Source: Tropicimonas isoalkanivorans (GTDB lineage: Bacteria; Pseudomonadota; Alphaproteobacteria; Rhodobacterales; Rhodobacteraceae). From it: 64,000 nt of DNA. The first letter of the stretch is position 1, and every line of letters begins with the position of its first letter. The stretch lies in contig NZ_FOLG01000008.1 of NCBI RefSeq assembly GCF_900112335.1, forward strand, positions 124,001 to 188,000, read 5' to 3'. The position numbers and the translations under genes are program-made. The notes under the pieces were generated by a model that had not been told where the DNA came from, did no database searches, and saw only the letters and a program-made list of their open reading frames with translations. Positions 45,867 through 58,780 of this stretch are shown here, piece after piece.

Positions 45867-46628
45867 CTACAAATTCCCTTCCGTGGGGATGTGAATGACC
45901 GTGCCGCAGTGCTTGCAGTGCACGGCATCCGGGTCGTGCAGAACGAGGCCGCAGACCTCGCATTCATGCCGCACCTTCGGCGGGCGGAACAGCACCTGAA
46001 GCAGCCGCAAAAACAGCGTGACGCCGAAGATCATCACCGCGACGGCAAGCAGCCGGCCCCACGTCCCCTCCAGGATGATGTCGCCAAAGCCGGTCGTCGT
46101 CAGCGTCGTTACCGTGAAGTAGAGTGCATCCAGGTAGTTGCCGATATCCGGGTTTATGTTGACCTGCGAGGCATAGATCAGCCCCGTCATCACGAACAGG
46201 AACACGCCCAGATTGATCGAGGCGAGGATGATGTCCTCGTGCTTCCGGAAGAAGCTGAAATCCTGCCGTAGCCTTACCAGCAGCTGGTAGGTGTGCAGCA
46301 ATCGCAGCGTCCGCACGATCCGCAGGAAACCCACACCCTCCCCGGCAATGGGGGCAAGGAAGGACAGGATCGACGCAATGTCGGCCCAGGTGGACAAGCG
46401 CAACAGAAACCGCCCGCGTTCCGCTTGCAGCCAGACGCGGATCACGAAGTCGATCAGGATCAGAATGCCGAAGACCGCATCTGCCGTCTCCACCCCACGG
46501 TTTCGCGGGAAAAAAGACGTGACGATGACGAAAAGAATGGTAACGATATCAAACGCTAACAGAGCATAGCGAAACTGATGCGCCGCCGGAGTGTCGCCCT
46601 CGTAAAGCGATCTGATGCGGTCGAACAC
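45867..46628 (-). CDS. voltage-gated-like potassium channel with C-terminal zinc ribbon
   Basis: 253 residues. A voltage-sensor-like four-helix region (about 20-150) with an Arg-bearing segment FLRIVRTLRLLHTYQLL is followed by the pore: LYFTVTTLTTTGFGDIILEG, where TTTGFGD is a K+ selectivity filter, then the inner helix VMIFGVTLFLRLLQVLF. After it comes a short cytoplasmic zinc ribbon with two CxxC pairs (CEVC and CKHC). GTG at 46628 has a good ribosome site and matches the typical beginning; an ATG at 46715 is the alternative. The zinc ribbon is an unusual end for such a channel. Confidence 0.82.
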   Translation of the reverse strand: MFDRIRSLYEGDTPAAHQFRYALLAFDIVTILFVIVTSFFPRNRGVETADAVFGILILIDFVIRVWLQAERGRFLLRLSTWADIASILSFLAPIAGEGVGFLRIVRTLRLLHTYQLLVRLRQDFSFFRKHEDIILASINLGVFLFVMTGLIYASQVNINPDIGNYLDALYFTVTTLTTTGFGDIILEGTWGRLLAVAVMIFGVTLFLRLLQVLFRPPKVRHECEVCGLVLHDPDAVHCKHCGTVIHIPTEGNL

Positions 46629-46792
46629 GGGCTTCCCCTTCTCGGGCCGGACACGGGCCGCGGCAGACGTACGTCGCCGGCACACGGGCCCGGGATTGGG
46701 CGCCAAGCCCTTCATATCGCAGCAAACCCCGGCACCCCTGAAAGGTCAAGCGCTGCTATTTTCCGGATCAGGTAGGGCGGCGAACGCACCCC

Positions 46793-47824
46793 TCAAGCCG
46801 CCCCGATCGGGATCGTGTCCTCCGCGTCCCAGCTCAGCCACACTGCGGCCCCCTCCGGAAGCTGTGGCAAATCGGGATCGCGGTCGATGACCTTCCAGGT
46901 CCCCCCGCCGCCGATATCGACCACGCATGTCGCCATCGACCCCGCGAAGACCCGCTGGACCAGCCGTCCCGGCAGGGCGTTGACGTCATCCTCCGGCGGC
47001 GTCGGCGTCAGGGTGAGCGCTTCGGGACGCACGGCATAGGCTGCAGCCCCCTCAGGCAGGGCGAGGCGCGCGCCCTCGGCAAACGTGTCGGGCAGCGGCG
47101 AGGGAAGCAGGTTGGCCTCCCCCAGAAACCGCGCGGCGAAACTGTCCACTGGCGCGTTATAAACCTCCCGCGGTGGCCCGGCCTGTACCAGACGCCCATC
47201 GCGCAAAATGCCGATGCGGTCGGCCAGCGTCAGCGCCTCCTCCTGATCGTGCGTCACGAAGATCGTGGTGATGCCCACCTCCCGCTGGATGCGCTTCAGC
47301 TCGATCTGCATGTCCACGCGGAGCGCCTTGTCCAGCGCGGAGAGCGGCTCGTCCAGCAACAGCACCTTGGGATTGGTGACGATGGCCCGCGCCAGGGCCA
47401 CCCGCTGGCGCTGCCCACCCGACAATTCCTTCGGCCGTCTCCGGCCGAGGCCTTCCAGCTGCACGAGTTCCAACACCTCGCCCACCCGCCGCCGTTCCTC
47501 GGCGCGGTCCACATGGCGCACGCGAAGGCCGAAGCCCACGTTCTCCGCCACGGTGAGGTTCGGAAAGAGCGCGTAATTCTGAAACATCATCCCGATCTCG
47601 CGCTTCTCTACCGGCACCCGCTCCACCGGCTGACCCGCTATCCGAACCTCGCCTTCGTCGGGAAACAGGAATCCCGCGATCACTCGCAACAGCGTGGTCT
47701 TGCCGCTCCCGGACGGACCCAGAAGGGCGAAAAAGCCGCCATCCACGAAATCCAGTGTCACGTCGTCCAGAGCCTTGAGCTCGCCGAAGCGCATGGTCAC
47801 GCCCCGCACCGACACCTCGGCCAT
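46793..47824 (-). CDS. ABC importer ATPase (PotA-like)
   Basis: 343 residues: ABC domain with Walker A GPSGSGKTTLL, Q-loop FQNYALFPNLTV, signature LSGGQRQRVALARA, Walker B VLLLDEPLSALD, and a C-terminal TOBE domain (about 265-343) that is usual for spermidine/putrescine and iron importers. Last gene of the operon running from 52.5 kb; the ATG overlaps the preceding permease stop by a single base. No terminator with a T-run was found in the 160 bases beyond its stop. Confidence 0.92.
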   Translation of the reverse strand: MAEVSVRGVTMRFGELKALDDVTLDFVDGGFFALLGPSGSGKTTLLRVIAGFLFPDEGEVRIAGQPVERVPVEKREIGMMFQNYALFPNLTVAENVGFGLRVRHVDRAEERRRVGEVLELVQLEGLGRRRPKELSGGQRQRVALARAIVTNPKVLLLDEPLSALDKALRVDMQIELKRIQREVGITTIFVTHDQEEALTLADRIGILRDGRLVQAGPPREVYNAPVDSFAARFLGEANLLPSPLPDTFAEGARLALPEGAAAYAVRPEALTLTPTPPEDDVNALPGRLVQRVFAGSMATCVVDIGGGGTWKVIDRDPDLPQLPEGAAVWLSWDAEDTIPIGAA

Positions 47825-48603
47825 CAGCGATGCCCCCCGAAGCTGAAGAACCGCGCCACCACCAGCATCAGCGCCATGGAGGCGCCGATGATGAGGGTGG
47901 AGACGGCGTTGATTTCGGGCGTGAAGCCCTTGCGGATCGCGGTGTAAATCAGCACGGGCAACGTCGCGTCGCCCGGTTTGGCGAGGAAGTAGGACACAAC
48001 GAACTGATCGAAGCTGACCGCGAAAGCAAAGAGCGCACCGGCCACCACACCCGGTGCGATCCAGGGCAGCGTCACGCGCCGCGTCACCGTCCACGGGCCG
48101 GCGCCGAGCGCGCGCGCGGCCTCCTCCAGTGTTCGGTCGAAACTGGCGAGGCGGGCATTCACGACGACAATGACATAGGGCAGCGCGAGCGCGACATGCC
48201 CGATCAGCACCGCCGGCGTGCCGCGCCCAAGCCCGATGGCAAAGAAGAAGATCAGCATCGCCGTGCCGGTGATGAGCCAGGGGATCGCGATGGGCGGGAA
48301 GAGCAGCACCTGCAACACCCGCTTGCCCCGAAAGTCATAACGGAAAAGCGCCAGCGCCGCAGCCGTGCCGAGCACGGTGGCAATGGTCATGGCGGCGAGC
48401 GCGATCAGCACCGAGCGGGTCGCGGCGGCGCGTATTGCAGTGTTGGCGGCAAGATCCTCGTACCAGCGGAAGGACGCCTCGAACGGGAGCTGGTAAAACG
48501 GCGAGGCGTTGAAGCTCATCGCCGCCATGACGAAGATCGGCGCGTAGAGGAACACCAATACCAACGCGAGCCAGGCGTATCCGGCAATCCGAAGCCCACT
48601 CAT
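47824..48603 (-). CDS. ABC importer permease (PotC-like)
   Basis: 259 residues, six helices, BPD_transp_1. N-terminal MSGLRIAGYAWLALVLVFLYAPIF is typical of PotC; the coupling loop is LEEAARALGAGPWTVTRRVTLP (EAA...G). The start at 48603 overlaps the PotB-like stop by 4 bases; a longer open frame into that gene was rejected. Confidence 0.9.
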   Translation of the reverse strand: MSGLRIAGYAWLALVLVFLYAPIFVMAAMSFNASPFYQLPFEASFRWYEDLAANTAIRAAATRSVLIALAAMTIATVLGTAAALALFRYDFRGKRVLQVLLFPPIAIPWLITGTAMLIFFFAIGLGRGTPAVLIGHVALALPYVIVVVNARLASFDRTLEEAARALGAGPWTVTRRVTLPWIAPGVVAGALFAFAVSFDQFVVSYFLAKPGDATLPVLIYTAIRKGFTPEINAVSTLIIGASMALMLVVARFFSFGGHR

Positions 48604-49463
48604 TGCAGCCCCTTTCGCAGGATCGGGCTGGACAGGGCGAGGATCAGCAGGACGACCGCGAGCAGGATAAATGACAACGCCGCGCCGAGGGGCCAGTTGA
48701 AGACGGCCACAAACTGATCCTCGACAACCGTGCCGTAATAGGTCCCGAACCGGCCGCCGAGAATGCGGGGCTCCATGAAGGAACCGACGACGGGGACGAA
48801 GATCAGCACCGCCCCTGCCAGCAAGCCCGACAGCGACAAGGGCAGAACGAGGCGGCGCAAGATGGTCAGCCGCCCTGCCCCGAGGGAGCGCGCAGCCGCG
48901 ATGATATCGTCGTCGATGGCCTGCAACGCCAGGTAGCTGGTGAGGATGACGTACGGGAGATAGGAGTGCACCAGCCCGATCACCACCGCCGCCGGCGTGA
49001 ACATCAGCCCCAGCCGCACGTCGCCGGGCCATACGAGGTCCAGAGCCCGCTCCAGGACACCATTGCCGCGCAGCACGATGGCCCAGGAGAATATCCGCAC
49101 CAGCGAGTTCGACCAGAACGGCAGGATGACGAGCAGGAACAACGCTTCCCGCGCACGACCCCGGATCTGCTTCGCCAGGACCAGCGCGCAGGGGTAGCCG
49201 ATGAGGATGCACAGCCCCGTGACCCACAAGCCCAACTTCACGGACTTCCACAAGAGACGCCCGTAAGTACCTGTTTCAAAAAAGGCAAAGTAGTTTGCAA
49301 GTGTCGCCGCAACTGGCTCGTTCCCGAACGGCGGCGCGGTAAGGAAGCTGAAAAAGAGCATGGCCGAGAGCGGCATGAACACCGCGAGCGTCAGCCACAG
49401 GTAGGCTGGAGCGAGAAGCCCCGCCGCCCTGCGGCCCTCGCCCGCATTCAACGTCCCGGCCAT
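48600..49463 (-). CDS. ABC importer permease (PotB-like)
   Basis: 287 residues, six helices, BPD_transp_1, with AAARSLGAGRLTILRRLVLP as the EAA coupling loop and LLAPAYLWLTLAVFMPLSAMLFFSF at the N-terminus, as in PotB. Pairs with the PotC-like subunit. It starts 11 bases after the binding-protein gene stops, in the standard D-B-C-A order. Confidence 0.9.
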   Translation of the reverse strand: MAGTLNAGEGRRAAGLLAPAYLWLTLAVFMPLSAMLFFSFLTAPPFGNEPVAATLANYFAFFETGTYGRLLWKSVKLGLWVTGLCILIGYPCALVLAKQIRGRAREALFLLVILPFWSNSLVRIFSWAIVLRGNGVLERALDLVWPGDVRLGLMFTPAAVVIGLVHSYLPYVILTSYLALQAIDDDIIAAARSLGAGRLTILRRLVLPLSLSGLLAGAVLIFVPVVGSFMEPRILGGRFGTYYGTVVEDQFVAVFNWPLGAALSFILLAVVLLILALSSPILRKGLQ

Positions 49464-49473
49464 GCCCGCGGCC

Positions 49474-50505
49474 TTACTGGCGCGCCTTCAGACCCTGCCA
49501 GAGCGCCAGGTATTTTTCCCGCGTGGCATCGTCCACCGGGTCCTGGAACTGTATCCGCATGACGACCTCGGGATCGCCTAGAACCTGCTTGTTGAAGGAA
49601 TCGTCCGGCAGCGCTTCGGCGGCGGCGGCGTTAGCGGAGGCCGGGGCGCCTTCCGCGTCCCATTTCACGTAGAACTCCGGGTCGATCATCCAGTCGATAA
49701 AGGCAACGGCGGCCTCCTTTTTGGTGGAGCTGTCGGGCACCGACAGCCCGTCGAGCCACGCGACCGCTCCTTCCTTCGGCACGACGAACTGCACCGGCAG
49801 CCCCATGTCGGCGGACCGCGCAGCGGAGCCGGACCAATAGGTGGCCACGTCCAATTCGCCTGCTGCCATGAACTGGTTCCAGTCGTTCTCCGAACTCCAG
49901 AACGTCCGGATCTGCGGCATCAGCTCGGCCAGCTTGGCCTCCACCACGTCGAGGTCGGTAATTTCGTTGACATCCTGTCCAGTGGCGAGAGCGCCGAACT
50001 GCACCGCCTCAAGCGCGTCGTCGCGGATCGACACGCGGCCCTCGTGGGCAGGGTCCCAGAACACCTGAATCGTGTCAGGAGCATCCTCGAAGGCATTCGT
50101 ATTGATTGCAAAAGATGTCAGGCCCCAAGTCCACGGCACGCCATAGACATCGCCGTCGATCACCAGTTCGCCCTCCTTGAAGCTCTCCGACACCGTGTCG
50201 AAGTTCTTCATGCCGGAGGTATCGATTGGTCCGATCAACCCCTCGTCCTTGGCCTGGCGGGTGAAGGCGGCGTTGATGAGAACAACGTCGTAAGCACCTG
50301 GATTCGTGCGGAGTTTCGTCAACATCTCCTGTTCGGAGGTGAAGTATTCGTGCACGACGCTGTGGCCCGTCGCTTCTGTGAACGCTTCAGTCGCCCAGTC
50401 CAGATCGGTGCCGTAGCCCTGCCAGTTCAGGACGCGGATCTCGTCGGCCATCGCGCCGCCAGCCGTCAGGGCAAGCAGCGAGGTGAGCAGAAGTCGTTTG
50501 GTCAT
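49474..50505 (-). CDS. PotD/PotF-like substrate-binding protein
   Basis: 343 residues with a Sec signal peptide (LLLTSLLALTAGGAMA, cleavage near residue 20). The mature start DEIRVLNWQGYGTDLDWATEAF resembles PotD/PotF-type proteins (V-L-N-W-x-x-Y); VPWTWGLTSFAINTNAF and VFWDPAHEGRVSIRDD are further family blocks. True PotD/F proteins bind polyamines, but this fold also takes other ligands, and the linked hydrolase and kinase point to a ribosyl or sugar compound. ATG at 50505 follows GAGGAGG. Confidence 0.88.
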   Translation of the reverse strand: MTKRLLLTSLLALTAGGAMADEIRVLNWQGYGTDLDWATEAFTEATGHSVVHEYFTSEQEMLTKLRTNPGAYDVVLINAAFTRQAKDEGLIGPIDTSGMKNFDTVSESFKEGELVIDGDVYGVPWTWGLTSFAINTNAFEDAPDTIQVFWDPAHEGRVSIRDDALEAVQFGALATGQDVNEITDLDVVEAKLAELMPQIRTFWSSENDWNQFMAAGELDVATYWSGSAARSADMGLPVQFVVPKEGAVAWLDGLSVPDSSTKKEAAVAFIDWMIDPEFYVKWDAEGAPASANAAAAEALPDDSFNKQVLGDPEVVMRIQFQDPVDDATREKYLALWQGLKARQ

Positions 50506-50539
50506 TCTGGTGTCCTCCTCGTGGGATATGGAGAAATGT

Positions 50540-51460
50540 CTAACCGGTTTCGACGGAAGACAGCAATGAAAGGACGCGGTTTTGCTCCGGAGCGGTCGCC
50601 GGTCCCTTGGCCGTGGTAGAAAGTGCTGCGGCGATGTTCGCGTAGCGGGCAGCGGCAAGCGCGTCGCCCGTTGCGTCCAGCCGGGCGAGAAAGCTGCCGA
50701 TATGTGCGTCCCCGGCGCCGTTCGTGTCCACCGGCGCGACCGGGTATGGCTCTACGTGGGTGACCGCGCCGCCCGTGGCCAGCCAACACCCCACCGCCCC
50801 GGCCCGCAGGACAGCTCCTTCGCGGCCTTCGGCAAGCACTGCCACGGCCGCCTCGGGGTCCGCCTCTCCGGTCAGGTGGGTCGCCTCCCGCGCGTTGGCA
50901 CTGATCCAAGCCGCACGGCTCAAGACTGGGTTCAGAATGCCTGTCGGGATTTCCGCCACCAGCGGGCACGGGTCCAACAGCAGGGGTGGGAGATTGGGGG
51001 AGGTCTCTATCCAGCGCACCAGCGCCGCCCCCGCCCCGCGATAGAGCAGAGTGTAACCTGAGACCATGACATAGCTGACGCCGGAAAGGTCCATGGCCAG
51101 CAGATCCGCCAAGGTCAGATGACCCTCCGCCCCCTCGGCGGCGACGAACGTGCGCTCACCCGACGGCTCGATCATGACCGTACAGCAGCCGGTGTCGCGC
51201 CCCGGATCGCGTGGTCGGGCCACGGCGATGCACTCGGCCGCCATCCCGGCTAGCACAAGCTCCGAGAATGGTCCCGTCCCGATACTGCCGCCGCAAATCG
51301 CCGCCATTCCGGCCCGCCGCGCGGCAACCATGGCGTTGTAGCCGCCCCCGGGGGCCATGGCGAAGCCGGTGACCACCGCTTCCTCTCCCGAACGTGGAAC
51401 GGCGGCGACGTCGTAAAGCAGGTCCACCACAGGACCCGTCATTTGGAGGAGCGCGCTCAC
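50540..51460 (-). CDS. PfkB-family sugar/nucleoside kinase (YegV-like)
   Basis: 306 residues. Ribokinase fold with APGGGYNAMVAARRAG (substrate Gly-Gly motif) near residue 35 and the C-terminal PfkB signature PVDTNGAGDAHIGSFLA (Asp base, anion hole). It phosphorylates a sugar or nucleoside with ATP. GTG at 51460 overlaps the hydrolase stop (GTGA), so the two are coupled, in the same order of functions as E. coli yegU-yegV. Substrate unknown. Confidence 0.87.
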   Translation of the reverse strand: MSALLQMTGPVVDLLYDVAAVPRSGEEAVVTGFAMAPGGGYNAMVAARRAGMAAICGGSIGTGPFSELVLAGMAAECIAVARPRDPGRDTGCCTVMIEPSGERTFVAAEGAEGHLTLADLLAMDLSGVSYVMVSGYTLLYRGAGAALVRWIETSPNLPPLLLDPCPLVAEIPTGILNPVLSRAAWISANAREATHLTGEADPEAAVAVLAEGREGAVLRAGAVGCWLATGGAVTHVEPYPVAPVDTNGAGDAHIGSFLARLDATGDALAAARYANIAAALSTTAKGPATAPEQNRVLSLLSSVETG

Positions 51461-52500
51461 TCTGCCGAACCGTGCTGCGCCGAGCGAGTTCGGAGCGCCA
51501 GCAATCCCTCGGCGGACCCGTCGAGACCAAGGGTGTTTGCAGCGCGAAGGCGGGCCACCTTGTCCGCCGGCATAGCCGCCGCGCCGGAACAGGCGCCGCA
51601 AATCGCCCCGGCGATGGCGCCGATGGTATCTGTGTCGTCCCCCAGATTGGCCGCGAGGCAACCGGCGCGCCATGCGTCCCCATCTGCCGCGGCCACCACG
51701 GCGAACGCCGCCGGAACGGACTCGTAGCTCGCAACGGATGTCCCGATCCGGTCGGCAATCGTCCCGGGATCGCCCGCGCCGATTTTCAGCGCCGCCTCGA
51801 TCCGGTCTGCCATATCCCGCACGCCCTCGCGTGCACCTTCCGCCTGCCCCAGCCGTGCAGCCTGCATCGCCTGCGGTATCGCCCCGCGCCAGTCCGACCC
51901 GTCCACGCCCGCACTCACCATTGCGGCGACAGCCGCTGCCCCCGCTATGGCCTCCCCGGTGTTGTGGGTAACCTGGCAAGTCTCCGCCACGCGCGCAACG
52001 AGCGCCGAAAGCTCGTCGCACGGGGTCGCGATGCCAACGGGGGCAATCCGCATCGCCGCGCCGTTCGTCGTCCCCTTCCGCCCGGTCTCGGACGCGGGCG
52101 TGCCCGCAAGCAGCGACGTGAGCGCCGCCTTGGTCGATGGCCCCAGCAGGTCCCGCAGGCCACGTTCCCGAACGTCCGCCTCCCAGGCCAGCAGGTCACG
52201 CGCCCAGGCGTCCGCGTCGAACCGCTCGGGCGAGGCGATCAGCCGGTTGGCCAGCAGCAGCGCCTGTTCCGTGTCGTCCGTCACTTGCGCGGCGGCAAGC
52301 CCATGGGAAACAGGATGATCGTCGAACGGCGCCACGAAATCCACGATCACGCCATAGCGGTCGAGGATCTCCTGCCGGGTCAGGGTCTGGGACGGCATTC
52401 CAAGCGCATCACCGAGGGCCAGCCCCTGCAGCGCGCCTCGGGCGCGGTCGACCGCGTGCGGGGCTCCCGGCGCAAGGTCGCCCTCTAAGCTCTTCGTCAT
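51457..52500 (-). CDS. ADP-ribosylglycohydrolase-family protein (YegU-like)
   Basis: 347 residues, all-helical DraG/ARH fold: RGALQGLALGDALGMPSQ at the start, TDDTEQALLLA (first metal-binding TDDT), and NLGDDTDTIGAIAGAICGA (second metal-binding DD-T-D) near the C-terminus, so both Mg2+ sites are intact. The family cleaves N- or O-glycosidic bonds to ribose. Coupled to a PfkB kinase and an ABC importer, it probably acts on an imported ribosyl compound rather than on protein. First gene of the operon, divergent from hmgA. Confidence 0.88.
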   Translation of the reverse strand: MTKSLEGDLAPGAPHAVDRARGALQGLALGDALGMPSQTLTRQEILDRYGVIVDFVAPFDDHPVSHGLAAAQVTDDTEQALLLANRLIASPERFDADAWARDLLAWEADVRERGLRDLLGPSTKAALTSLLAGTPASETGRKGTTNGAAMRIAPVGIATPCDELSALVARVAETCQVTHNTGEAIAGAAAVAAMVSAGVDGSDWRGAIPQAMQAARLGQAEGAREGVRDMADRIEAALKIGAGDPGTIADRIGTSVASYESVPAAFAVVAAADGDAWRAGCLAANLGDDTDTIGAIAGAICGACSGAAAMPADKVARLRAANTLGLDGSAEGLLALRTRSAQHGSAE

Positions 52501-52697
52501 GCGCGATATTCCCAGCAGCGGAAAGCCGTGGCATCGAACGCGGGTTTGTCCGGACTGTCAATGCGTTTCCCCAAAGACGATCCATGGCCAGAGCGTTTTG
52601 CGCCGTCCCCAAGCAAGGGAAACGCCGCTCCCGCCGACACCACTCTGCCATTGCCGGAAGCGCGTGCTAACATGGCCCAGAATCCAGGGAGGCAGAT

Positions 52698-54246: not shown

Positions 54247-57200
54247 CTACACGATTGCCAGCGGATCGACCGTCAGATCGACCCAGTAGTTCGATGCATT
54301 GTAGGACTGCGTCGGGAAATCGCCGGTCGAACCAGCGCTGAAGACGCCGTTGCCGCCGCTCGACGGCGCGGTCAGGTTCCCGTCGGGGCCGGTCCAGTCG
54401 GTATCGAAGAAATTCCCGGTGAAGGCGTAGTTCTGCGTCGTGCCGTAGGACACGACGTAGATCTCGTCGGCGGCGATCTCCACCGGCGCGGACAGGATGC
54501 CGGACTGCCAACCGGACTCGCCGGGATCGGACTGAACCACCACGGAGGCCAGCTTGTTGCCAGCCGCATCCCAGAGGTTGAGCGTGCGCACGTCGGTGTC
54601 CGTCGCATCCGCCGCGCCGCGATAGTAGCGCAGACTAGTGACCTGACCGGCGGCGGCCGAGGTGAACTCGACCCCAAGCTCATAATCCGTCGGATCATAG
54701 GTGACGATGGCATCCGGCACTGCCGTCGGCCCGAAGAGAGACCAGCCGCCAGCGATGGCCTCGTCTACGTCGGCGACGTTGATGAGCAGCGACTGTTCGA
54801 CTGCAGGATTGATCCCGTCGCTGACCGCGACGAGCAGTTCGTAGGCGTTGTCGCCATTGGCATCGGCCGGCGCCTCGTAGTCCGGTGCGGAGGCGAACGT
54901 CAGGAGGCCGGTATTCGGATTTATGACGAACTGGAACTCATCCGCCCCGCCGGCGATGGCGTAGGTCAGCGCATCGCCGTCCGGGTCGGACGCCGTGAGG
55001 GTCAGCGCGCCGGTCTGGTTCTCGTCCACCGTCACGGTGGTGGAGGCCAGCGTGAAAGTCGGCGGGTCGTTCGGGATCGTCTCGTCGATGTCCGCCACGT
55101 TCACCACGAGCGCCTGCGTCACCGCCGGGTTGACCCCGTCGCTGACCGACACCGTCACCTCGTAGGCGTTGTTGCCGTTCGCGTCCGCCGGGGCCTCGAA
55201 GTCCGGGGCGGAGGCAAAGCGCAGCACGCCGGTCGTCGCGTTGATGACGAAGGCCGACGCATCCACCCCGCCCGCGATGGCGTAGGTCAGCGTGTCGCCG
55301 TCCGGGTCCGATGCCGTCAGCGTCAGCGCGCCGGTCTGGTTCTCGTTCACCGTCACGTCGGTGGAGGCCAGCGTGAAGGCGGGGGCGTCGTTGGTGACCA
55401 CACCGGGCGTGAACTCCACGTCCGTCCAGTAGTTGGAGGCGTTCCACGTGCCCGTGGGGAAGATCCCCACCCCGCCCTGCGCGAAGACCCCGTTCGCCTC
55501 GCCGCCGCCACTGGCGGGCGCGATAAGGGAGCCGTCGGCGCTGGCGTGGGCCGTCGAGAAGAAGCCGGCGTCCGCCACGTAGTTGCCCGTCGTGCCGTAG
55601 GAGACGACGTAGGTTTGCCCGGCCACCAGCCCAACCGACGAGGTGAGCGCACCGGTCTGCCATCCGGACTGCCCCGGAAGCGAGGTCACCGCGACCGACG
55701 CCAGCAGGGTGCCGGTATCGCTCCACAGGTTCAGGGTGCGCGTGTCGGTATCGCCGGAGTCCCCGGTGCCGCGGTAGTAGCGCAGGCCCGAGATCTCGCC
55801 GCTCACGGTCGCTTCGAACCGCGTGCCGAGCTCATAGGTGACGAAATCGTTGAAGACCGTCCCGGTGGGCTGGGTTGACGGACCGAAAAGCGACACCGTC
55901 GCACCACCGCTCTCGTCCAGATCGGTGACGTTCACGACGAGCGCCTGCGTCACCGCCGGGTCGATCCCGTCGCTGACCGAGACCGTCACCTCGTAGGCAT
56001 TGTCGCCGTTCGCATCCCCAGGCGCCTCGTAGTCCGGCGCCGATGCAAAGCTCAGAACCCCGGTCGACGCATTGATCACGAAAAGCCCGGCATCATCGCC
56101 GCCCGCAATGGCGTAGGTCAACAGATTGCCATTGGAATCGGTCGCCGTCACCTGACCGGCGACCGCGGTGTTCTCCACCATTGAGAAGCTGGAGGGCGAG
56201 GTGATGATTGGCGGAACGTTCACAACGTCGCCCACTGCGAAGGTCACGTCCACCCAGTAGTTTTCGGTGTTATAAGTCTGCTGCGGGTAGACGGCCCCAG
56301 AACCGCTCGCAAAGGCATAGACACCGTTGATGCCGCCGGGCGCCGACAGGATGCCATAGGGTTCGGTGTAGCTCGTTGAGAAGAACCCCTGGGAGCTGAC
56401 GTAGTTGTCGTCTGTACGGTAGGAGACGGTATATTCCTGGCCGACCTGCAGGGAGATGGGGGTGTCGAGCGTGGCCAGTTGCCAGCCTGTTTCACCGGGT
56501 GTCGAGGTGAAGGTTACGGTCGCGAGGAGTTGACCGTTGGAGTCCCAAAGGTGGCCTTCGCGGACGTCGGTGTCGCCGGAGTCGCCTTCGGCCCGGTAAT
56601 AACGCAGCTGGGTAACTTCCCCTGCCTGGTTAGCCGTGAACCGCATGCCCAATTCATAGGACGTGCCTTCCGCGTTCATACCGCCGTTGAATGCGGTGAA
56701 GGGCTCGAACAGGCTGACAGAGCTCGGAATGACCGGTGCCGTGACGGTGACCAATTCGGAGTCCAGCCCCGTCAGGTTCGGCATGTTGAGACTATCGTCG
56801 ATGGCCCGCACGAGGATGTCGAAATCGCCCTCCGTGGTGGGCACCCACGAATAGCTCCAGTTCGTCGTGCCCTGGGCGGTGCGCCAGGTCTGGCCGCCGT
56901 CGAAGGAGACTTCGACCAACGCCACAACGCCGTCCTCGGTTGCGGCATTGCCATCGTCGTCGGTGGCGGTGCCGGTGATCGTCACAGTGCTGAGGGCGGA
57001 CACGTCGGCGGGCAGATCGTCAATGGTGGCCGTCGCGGCGACCCCATCGTTGGAGGCCGTGGCGCGCACCAGCCCCTGCGAGGCGAGGACAGCGTCCGCG
57101 ACGGCGGGTTGAATCCCCATATCCGCGAACAGGTTCACAACGAACTGCTGCAGGTCCGTGTTTTCGATGTTCGCGATGTAGGGTTCGCCGTCGTGGACGT

Positions 57201-58665
57201 CGCTCAGCGCCCAGGACCAGAACACCGTGCCGGCGCCAAAGACCAGCGCCCCGCTTTCCGCGCGATAAAGCGAGAGGTTGTGGGTTTCCACGCCGGGCGC
57301 GACGGTATTGCCCTCGTCGACGAGAATGCCCGACCAGGGAAGGGTCGTCTCCGACAGCTTGATCAAGCCGTCCGGCGTGTATTCGTCATCGAGGACAACG
57401 TTCCATTCGTACCCGATGATGCCTTCCGCGATGTCGAGCGCGCCACCGTTGGCGATGCTCGTGTCGCGCCAGACGCGCAACCCGGAATACTCCTCCGGGA
57501 CGTCCAGTGCGCCGCCGAATTCGCCCGTCCCGTCGGGGCCGAAAAGCTGGCCGGTGAGCGAGTTCTCAGGCTCGTTATCTCCGCCGGCAAGCGGGTTCTC
57601 GACGAAGCGCACGTCGCGCCACGTGCCCGTCCATTCGTTCGCCGGGTCGAGATTGTAGTAATCTTCGGGGTTGTTGCCGGACTGGTTTGCCCATGTCTCC
57701 TTGTAGCAGACCAGCGTGCGGTACTCGACGCCATCCACGATGCTCGTCTCGTAGCGGGTTTTCCAGTAGACCTCGTTGCCGCTCCAAAAGAGCAGGTTCA
57801 CCCCGGAGTCCCGGGCCTCCTCGACGTTGGAGCGTTGGTCGCCCGACCAGTATTCGTCGTGGCCCACGGAAATGTAGGCGTCGTACTTTTTCAGGTAGTC
57901 AGCGCCGAGACGGTCGGTATCGACACCGGAAATGTAGGAGACGTCGTAGCCGTTCTGCTCCAGCCACTGGATGGCGGCATAGTCCGCCCCGAACAGGTAG
58001 TCCTGAGCTCCCGCTGCCGGACCACCCTGCGAGCCTTCGATTCCGCGGGTGATGAACGGGCGGTTATAGCTGACGGCATAGGCGCGAGGAGTCTCGATCT
58101 CGCCGCTGGCGTCCCCGTAGAAGTTGGCACCGATCTGGCCATTATTCCCGAACCAGCCGTTATACGCATGCCACGTGGTATCCGACGTCTGGAGGACGAC
58201 GTCGGCCGGACGATCGTCCTCCCGCAAAATGAAGGGAATCTGGTTCGCGGCGCCGTCGATGGGATCGCCATTGTTGTCGAGCCGCTGGACTCGCGCGAGG
58301 TACACGCCAGAAACAGCGTCCGTCGGGGTCAGCCAACTGTCCGTAACGGACCAGTTGCCGGCATCGACCAATGCTCGCTCCGCGTCATACGCCGCATCGG
58401 GTTGCACCGTGGCATCGGAATTGACCCATTCGGCAACTTTGCGTGCGCCGGCACCTCCGTAGTAGCCGAGGCGAAAGACTTCGACGAGGTAGTCGCTGCC
58501 CGCGCCGCCATTCACGTTGATCTTGAAATCGATCTGGTCACCGGCGTTCACGCTGAAATCGGTCGTGAAGCCTTCGATTTGCGTCGAGTGCGGCACATCC
58601 CAATAGGATTTTGCCGTCACCCCATCTGTACGGGCGTTCTCGAGTGTAATTGCGTTGTCTGCCAT
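54247..58665 (-). CDS. giant modular protein: dimethylformamidase-beta-like domain, three DUF4082, three cadherin repeats
   Basis: 1472 residues. Residues about 15-530 resemble the large subunit of N,N-dimethylformamidase (blocks such as SVGHDEYWSGDQRSNVE and LLFWSGNEVYWKTRYE), 543-635 an Ig-like domain (TVTITGTATDDDGN), then DUF4082 (648-810), cadherin (815-916), DUF4082 (920-1088), two cadherins (1090-1194, 1202-1303) and a final DUF4082 (1308-1472). DUF4082 and cadherin units suggest an extracellular, perhaps glycan-binding, role. No signal peptide and no RTX repeats are seen, so export is unexplained. Start at 58665 follows GGAGG; a TTG 15 bases upstream overlaps that site. It lies downstream of polysaccharide export genes on the same strand. 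Confidence 0.85.
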   Translation of the reverse strand: MADNAITLENARTDGVTAKSYWDVPHSTQIEGFTTDFSVNAGDQIDFKINVNGGAGSDYLVEVFRLGYYGGAGARKVAEWVNSDATVQPDAAYDAERALVDAGNWSVTDSWLTPTDAVSGVYLARVQRLDNNGDPIDGAANQIPFILREDDRPADVVLQTSDTTWHAYNGWFGNNGQIGANFYGDASGEIETPRAYAVSYNRPFITRGIEGSQGGPAAGAQDYLFGADYAAIQWLEQNGYDVSYISGVDTDRLGADYLKKYDAYISVGHDEYWSGDQRSNVEEARDSGVNLLFWSGNEVYWKTRYETSIVDGVEYRTLVCYKETWANQSGNNPEDYYNLDPANEWTGTWRDVRFVENPLAGGDNEPENSLTGQLFGPDGTGEFGGALDVPEEYSGLRVWRDTSIANGGALDIAEGIIGYEWNVVLDDEYTPDGLIKLSETTLPWSGILVDEGNTVAPGVETHNLSLYRAESGALVFGAGTVFWSWALSDVHDGEPYIANIENTDLQQFVVNLFADMGIQPAVADAVLASQGLVRATASNDGVAATATIDDLPADVSALSTVTITGTATDDDGNAATEDGVVALVEVSFDGGQTWRTAQGTTNWSYSWVPTTEGDFDILVRAIDDSLNMPNLTGLDSELVTVTAPVIPSSVSLFEPFTAFNGGMNAEGTSYELGMRFTANQAGEVTQLRYYRAEGDSGDTDVREGHLWDSNGQLLATVTFTSTPGETGWQLATLDTPISLQVGQEYTVSYRTDDNYVSSQGFFSTSYTEPYGILSAPGGINGVYAFASGSGAVYPQQTYNTENYWVDVTFAVGDVVNVPPIITSPSSFSMVENTAVAGQVTATDSNGNLLTYAIAGGDDAGLFVINASTGVLSFASAPDYEAPGDANGDNAYEVTVSVSDGIDPAVTQALVVNVTDLDESGGATVSLFGPSTQPTGTVFNDFVTYELGTRFEATVSGEISGLRYYRGTGDSGDTDTRTLNLWSDTGTLLASVAVTSLPGQSGWQTGALTSSVGLVAGQTYVVSYGTTGNYVADAGFFSTAHASADGSLIAPASGGGEANGVFAQGGVGIFPTGTWNASNYWTDVEFTPGVVTNDAPAFTLASTDVTVNENQTGALTLTASDPDGDTLTYAIAGGVDASAFVINATTGVLRFASAPDFEAPADANGNNAYEVTVSVSDGVNPAVTQALVVNVADIDETIPNDPPTFTLASTTVTVDENQTGALTLTASDPDGDALTYAIAGGADEFQFVINPNTGLLTFASAPDYEAPADANGDNAYELLVAVSDGINPAVEQSLLINVADVDEAIAGGWSLFGPTAVPDAIVTYDPTDYELGVEFTSAAAGQVTSLRYYRGAADATDTDVRTLNLWDAAGNKLASVVVQSDPGESGWQSGILSAPVEIAADEIYVVSYGTTQNYAFTGNFFDTDWTGPDGNLTAPSSGGNGVFSAGSTGDFPTQSYNASNYWVDLTVDPLAIV
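54757..55060 (-). repeat. cadherin repeat unit 3 (tandem DNA repeat)
   Basis: Encodes PPTFTLASTTVTVDENQTGA to NVADVDE. Near-identical in DNA to unit 2 (55084-55395), including the blocks for TLTASDPDGD and FASAPDYEAPADANG, so recent duplication or gene conversion is likely. Confidence 0.8.
55084..55395 (-). repeat. cadherin repeat unit 2 (tandem DNA repeat)
   Basis: Encodes APAFTLASTDVTVNENQTGA to NVADIDE; directly adjoins unit 3 and shares long identical DNA stretches with it and with unit 1. Confidence 0.8.
55918..56221 (-). repeat. cadherin repeat unit 1
   Basis: Encodes PPIITSPSSFSMVENTA to NVTDLDE. Its second half is almost the same as units 2 and 3 (EVTVSVSDGIDPAVTQALVV); the first half has diverged. 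Separated from unit 2 by a DUF4082 domain. Confidence 0.75.
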
Positions 58666-58780
58666 AATCGTCGCCTCCAAGACGTCTCAAATCAGGTCTG
58701 CGGACGTTGCCGCGTTGGTTCGGGCACGTTGCCCGGGCCGGTTTCTTATTGGGCGCACGCCGTCATGGCGCGCGCCACAG

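Follow-up and report, generated by a model that had tools for sequence, protein, structure and literature searches.

A compact operon of six minus-strand genes lies in the 64,000-nucleotide stretch of Tropicimonas isoalkanivorans DNA analysed here (contig NZ_FOLG01000008.1, positions 124,001 to 188,000; hereafter the window) and joins an ADP-ribosylglycohydrolase (ARH)-family enzyme and a PfkB-family kinase to an ATP-binding cassette (ABC) importer resembling PotABCD (Table 1). The initial annotation had described these genes as overlapping or nearly touching, and the coordinates and Pfam assignments bear this out: the ARH and PfkB genes overlap by 4 bp, 34 nt separate the PfkB gene from the binding-protein gene (with a GAGGAGG motif just upstream of the latter), 10 nt lie between the binding-protein gene and permease 1, and the two permease genes share 4 bp and permease 2 and the ATPase gene 1 bp. 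The N-terminus of the kinase matches that in a relative (L142), and the hydrolase accounts for the only PF03747 match in the genome.

Table 1 The six-gene operon and the intergenic region that adjoins it (window coordinates)
Feature	Position	Strand	Supporting matches or remarks
ARH-family N-glycosidase (YegU-like)	51457..52500	minus	PF03747 2.1e-60; 205.3 bits vs cut-off 26.2
PfkB-family kinase (YegV-like)	50540..51460	minus	PF00294 6.7e-36
Periplasmic solute-binding protein, PotD-like, altered pocket	49474..50505	minus	PF13416 (SBP_bac_8) 1.6e-30; PotD 2.5e-40
ABC permease 1 (PotB-like)	48600..49463	minus	PF00528 4.4e-15; PotB model 5.2e-52
ABC permease 2 (PotC-like)	47824..48603	minus	PF00528 3.2e-18; PotC model 1.1e-62
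ABC ATPase (PotA-like) with TOBE domain	46793..47824	minus	PF00005 1.1e-37; TOBE_2 1e-12
Gap between ARH gene and divergent hmgA	52501..52697		No GntR gene, no ACAGGT motif

The metal-binding motifs of the hydrolase (T74-D75-D76-T77 and D289-T290-D291-T292) are invariant in 13 aligned sequences including that of the window, as is the GAGD motif of the kinase (248-251) in 12, and the earlier description of both metal sites and the kinase's aspartate base as intact therefore holds. The closest E. coli counterparts are YegU, to which the hydrolase is 35% identical, and YegV, which gave the strongest match among six E. coli kinases (3.8e-28 vs 8.8e-15 for RbsK); that yegT, yegU and yegV are adjacent in E. 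coli, as had been stated, was confirmed. Neither enzyme reaches the equivalog cut-offs of NCBIfam (hydrolase, 77.9 vs 337.05 for DraG and 75.7 vs 490 for Tri1; kinase, 100.7 vs 299.65 for ribokinase). The closest solved relative of the hydrolase is MJ1187, labelled hypothetical, and DraG is also among its relatives; the window enzyme shares a sequence family with DraG, ARH3 and MJ1187 but differs from them in its catabolic operon context. The yegTUVW genes encode a hydrolase and a kinase of the same kinds and share a GntR regulator (ggaR) with relatives of the window operon; however, their importer belongs to the major facilitator superfamily (MFS) whereas that of the window is an ABC system, and of the hallmarks of a YegU/YegV module the window holds the ARH, the PfkB and the importer without a nearby GntR regulator. 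In E. coli, yegTUV is described as having no assigned function (PMC10819704).

An ARH profile found matches in 28 of 397 sampled genomes of the phylum, and all 27 loci outside the window's own genome hold a PfkB gene, a nearby GntR gene and one of three importers, i.e., MFS/YegT (10 loci), Pot-type ABC (10) or NCS1 (7). The recurrence of the hydrolase-kinase pair with different transporters, for which a survey had been proposed, was thus seen at every one of these loci. The pair occurs across Alpha- and Gammaproteobacteria, Burkholderiaceae and lactobacilli, and also on plasmids, with the ABC type in Paracoccus albus, Rhizobium TH2, Mesorhizobium B1-1-8 and Burkholderia stagnalis (the last by tblastn), with MFS in Pantoea, and with NCS1 in Paraburkholderia, Plesiomonas and lactobacilli. 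On a tree of the enzyme pair (51 rows) the importer changes once for MFS, twice for ABC and three times for NCS1, starred branches forcing at least two of the changes in each of the ABC and NCS1 types; the ARH tree (53 rows) gives one, three and four changes, respectively, with at least two forced for both ABC and NCS1. Both trees were made by a quick method and carry long-branch warnings, above all for L114 from Yersinia, which was kept as one of 52 kinases; the L099 hydrolase was left out of the trees (its extended frame covers 23 residues only), and L090, L104, L106, L113 and L052, which is broken, were likewise not entered. As the same pair carries one of three importer types across the phylum loci, its status as a module with exchangeable importers is well supported. 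The L114 locus itself, on a Yersinia frederiksenii plasmid (L114:5207-11783), encodes, one after another, GntR, ARH, a SIS-domain protein, a kinase, a phytase-like protein and a UshA-type nucleotidase, which may together form a further glycoside pathway.

Within the family, 394 genomes were searched with thresholds of 1e-40 for the ARH and 1e-90 for the binding protein, which were found in 10 and 13 genomes, respectively. Every genome with the ARH (10/10) also holds the binding protein (hypergeometric 1.3e-17, uncorrected for kinship), and the check that the enzymes co-occur with the importer in related genomes was thereby passed. The kinase gene adjoins the ARH gene at all ten loci and the six-gene order is intact at nine; at the exception (G323) the importer is convergent, ~1.4 kb from the pair, and is followed by an isochorismatase-family gene. 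One importer genome without an ARH match (G193) has its enzyme pair cut by a contig end, and two others (G294, G021) hold a sister importer and an isochorismatase gene, with no enzyme pair beside the importer. Among genomes of the window's genus, one (G002) has the cassette intact and another (G006) has it split between the PfkB and binding-protein genes by ~12 kb that include glycosyltransferase genes (L142:5800-17600); six others have no close ARH, G008 having a distant one. The large searches scored only ~5-6 candidates per genome and their counts are lower bounds. The same holds for searches with the single ARH protein: class-wide, only G785 and the genome of the window itself were matched (2/387), and a contig scan gave one locus (L035), whereas many more phylum matches were obtained with the alignment query. 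The window operon is real and co-inherited and represents the ABC form of the YegUV module.

The importer shares with E. coli PotABCD its ABC family and its four components, and Pot models are the best NCBIfam matches for each gene (PotD 6e-43, PotB 5.2e-52, PotC 1.1e-62, potA 1e-102), yet all four score under the curated cut-offs (343.2 bits vs 355.6 for the potA subfamily). We compared the pockets of nine cassette binding proteins with that of E. coli PotD, at positions that we take, from its structure, to be the spermidine contacts with their respective roles. All nine differ from PotD at contacts 35, 36, 83, 85 and 293 (the last aligning as A or P, varying with the alignment) and keep W34, Y37, D168, E171, W229, W255 and D257. 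The initial annotation had cautioned that a polyamine label might be wrong, and the sub-cut-off scores together with the five changed contacts sustain that caution. We had considered W34, W255 and D257 as a sign of amine binding and dropped them, since most of 14 paralogs keep these residues and they are therefore not discriminating. If the operon encoded a polyamine importer and two enzymes unrelated to it, the closeness of the Pot models and the retention of D168, E171 and D257 would be accounted for; we nevertheless consider this reading very improbable, given the scores and changed contacts, the spread of W34, W255 and D257 among paralogs, the joint inheritance of importer and enzymes, and the presence in the same genome of another paralog with a PotF-like pattern (L131, one of five such binding proteins at 1e-15). 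Judged from its sequence, the importer is unlikely to be a plain polyamine system; it differs from PotABCD in its ligand pocket, its sub-equivalog scores and its tie to the enzyme pair.

Many ABC-type relatives (6/10 loci of the family sample) carry a GntR/UTRA regulator gene directly before the ARH gene. No GntR-type regulator was matched within the window, and elsewhere in its genome only distant GntR proteins were found (best 27% identical). Of 20 ABC-type loci that have a regulator, 19 carry the motif ACAGGT near the regulator start against 1.0 expected by shuffling, often in pairs spaced by 10 or 13 bp, an excess that is descriptive only because the motif was chosen from the loci in which it was counted. 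It is present in one of seven NCS1-type loci (0.38 expected) and in none of seven regulator-less loci, the window included (0 copies in the 200 bp upstream of the operon). The window's genus thus appears to have lost both the regulator and the motif. Scans for promoters and terminators yielded nothing beyond the level of shuffled sequences. At one of the six regulator-bearing loci of the family sample the cassette's GntR regulator reads in two frames, through a frameshift or an assembly error (L029:7571-8298).

In three lineages the module, and elsewhere a sister importer, neighbours the nic cluster of nicotinate catabolism. In Burkholderia stagnalis, homologs of NicA, C, D, E, F and X, of a molybdopterin subunit and of MarR, with an MFS gene, lie ~0.6 kb from a whole ARH-PfkB-ABC-GntR cassette, and a genome of another class (G999) has MarR, MFS, NicC, NicA and molybdopterin-subunit homologs in a stretch that stops ~8 kb short of the cassette. 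On two Pantoea plasmids nicCDEF-like and MFS genes adjoin a nucleoside permease-ARH-PfkB-GntR row; NicC there matches 6-hydroxynicotinate 3-monooxygenase at 2.6e-190 and NicE matches maleate isomerase at 3.2e-115. In L. plantarum a NAPRT gene scoring over its cut-off lies beside ARH-NCS1-PfkB, together with NrtR-like and nicotinamidase-like genes that are both well under theirs, and the full cassette of G355 has an isochorismatase-family gene ~20 bp beyond its ATPase gene. In Mesorhizobium AR07 a nic cluster encloses a sister importer (binding protein 52% identical) and an isochorismatase gene; the NicC of this cluster matches a solved enzyme at 2.6e-186, and its NicX does so at 2e-96. Four Rhizobium/Shinella loci (L151:46-17178, L147, L149, L150) combine the sister importer with a molybdopterin-subunit gene, isochorismatase, MarR and two glycoside hydrolases, and possibly serve the use of nicotinate hexosides. 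Molybdopterin-subunit assignments throughout are based on the L151 probe.

Scanned for nic-type genes, 54 loci gave clear matches in L041, L045 and L047, which represent two lineages, and isolated or weaker ones in L028, L044, L099, L101 and L109; with nic frequency and genome size assumed, the rough chance of such a context is 0.0002 for the in-locus scan and 0.02 for G999. After removal of flanking open reading frames (ORFs) that overlap cassette genes, only three flanking families recurred in at least three lineages, i.e., a generic SDR, a porin and the nic-type MFS. A further 22 occurred in exactly two lineages, and of the seven representatives run through Pfam one is the G355 isochorismatase, with no enzyme for nucleobases or pyridines among the rest; ten recurring neighbours had nothing in common according to Pfam. 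Cassette and sister binding proteins also have G36, N83 and A293 in common, as well as A85 except for one V. Because nic and NAD-salvage genes adjoin the module, a sister importer sits within a nic cluster and the binding proteins share these residues, the sequence evidence taken together points to a glycosylated pyridine as the substrate.

We give an even chance to the proposal that the six genes serve to import and degrade a pyridine bearing an N-linked ribose, of which nicotinamide riboside and nicotinic acid riboside are the likeliest candidates. Once captured by the periplasmic binding protein, the riboside would enter the cell through the ABC importer. There the kinase would phosphorylate its ribose, probably at the 5'-OH while the riboside is still intact, and hydrolysis of the N-glycosidic bond by the ARH-family enzyme would then yield free pyridine and ribose-5-phosphate; alternatively, cleavage would come first and phosphorylation of the ribose second. 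We infer, rather than compute, the substrate, the order of the steps and the fate of the pyridine.

Three considerations incline us, modestly, toward the kinase acting before the hydrolase. The first comes from more distant ARH genes in Listeria and Enterococcus (L112:5070-7975, L053:4018-6927), which follow a beta-glucoside-type phosphotransferase system (PTS) with no kinase annotated nearby. A PTS phosphorylates its substrate on entry, and these pairs suggest an ARH that cleaves a phosphorylated glycoside; by analogy, an ARH of the YegU kind may act after phosphorylation. The second lies in the kinase: whereas the equivalents of RbsK D16, G41, G42, N46 and D255 are present in all 52 cassette kinases, that of K43 is kept in none and that of E143 in three, and PsuK likewise lacks both of these residues, which we take to be ribose contacts (the roles of the other RbsK positions being assigned in the same way). 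PsuK acts on the intact nucleoside, and the E. coli pseudouridine module psuTKG, like the window operon, combines an importer, a PfkB kinase and a glycosidase, although PsuG and PsuT belong to other families than the window's hydrolase and importer. Third, the ADP-ribosyl group recognised by the ARH family resembles a 5'-phosphorylated riboside.

Several observations weigh against a pyridine riboside as the substrate or against the pathway as drawn. Known ARH enzymes cleave alpha-ADP-ribosyl bonds, and natural pyridine ribosides are mostly beta. The equivalent of RbsK N14 is absent from all 52 cassette kinases yet kept in PsuK, and E171 is missing in four of six sister binding proteins, so that cassette and sister pockets are not identical. 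The L. plantarum neighbourhood counts as a single event, being shared by two plasmids with an identical ARH, and it is missing in the other lineage (L110), L111 having too little upstream sequence. Isochorismatase genes adjoin only two of the ten family cassettes (G355, G323), and none of four isochorismatase proteins run against NCBIfam reached a nicotinamidase cut-off. NicC was found at 1e-80 in four of 43 genomes (41 with the pair, two with the importer only) and is co-located in one of the four, and none of the ten NicC-bearing genomes among 295 of the family bears the cassette; nic adjacency is therefore the exception. At 1e-80 the window's genome has no NicC match, and hence the pyridine would there probably pass to NAD salvage rather than to catabolism. 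No publication linking these genes to pyridine ribosides was seen in the limited collection of literature searched. When the evidence was rechecked, the G355 isochorismatase gene was added in favour and the E171 and N14 differences against, and our estimate was unchanged.

That nic linkage is confined to a minority of genomes would also fit the same module acting on another riboside, namely a nucleoside (purine, pyrimidine or modified, and possibly cationic) or an amine carrying ribose, for example N-ribosyl-arginine. The exchanged importers (nucleoside-type MFS such as YegT, NCS1 and Pot-like ABC) agree with this, as does DraG among the ARH relatives, an enzyme that cleaves ADP-ribosyl-arginine. 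Set against it are the nic or NAD-salvage neighbours found with all three importer types and the lack of any purine or pyrimidine gene among the three flanking families in at least three lineages, a weak negative since only some of the 22 two-lineage families were identified; on balance we consider it somewhat unlikely. A role in handling sugar nucleotides or ADP-ribose-type compounds, like the one proposed to link E. coli yegTUV to ADP-glucose and glycogen, seems improbable to us in view of the importer types, as we know of no Pot-type or NCS1 importer for sugar nucleotides. It draws on two reports on E. coli: GgaR-DNA complexes were diminished by ADP-glucose, and cells without ggaR had more glycogen (PMC10819704), and yegV was among the deletions that were glycogen-deficient on ADP-glucose medium (PMC6195507). 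The reported response of GgaR to ADP-glucose counts against a pyridine riboside as well (PMC10819704).

Returning to the pyridine riboside, we tentatively extend the proposal from the window to the module at large. The ARH-PfkB pair may represent an undescribed route of pyridine-nucleoside degradation, in which PfkB would convert the riboside to the mononucleotide and ARH would release pyridine and ribose-5-phosphate, and which would be supplied interchangeably by importers of three or more classes. Such a route would explain yegTUV, and the sister importers with their glycoside hydrolases would handle nicotinate hexosides. Importer exchange and the nicotinate neighbourhoods provide a specific, testable substrate class for yegTUV-type genes. 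If true, this would be a new scavenging or degradation route for B3 ribosides, and would give a small-molecule metabolic function to the ARH superfamily, known for reversing protein ADP-ribosylation.

Around the operon, hmgA (644.2 bits vs cut-off 510.75, NCBIfam) is divergent and lies 197 bp upstream, and an ion-channel-family gene (Ion_trans_2; 45867-46715) follows directly downstream on the same strand. Further away, a minus-strand ORF of 1477 aa (54247-58680) has some stretches that appear repetitive to the eye.

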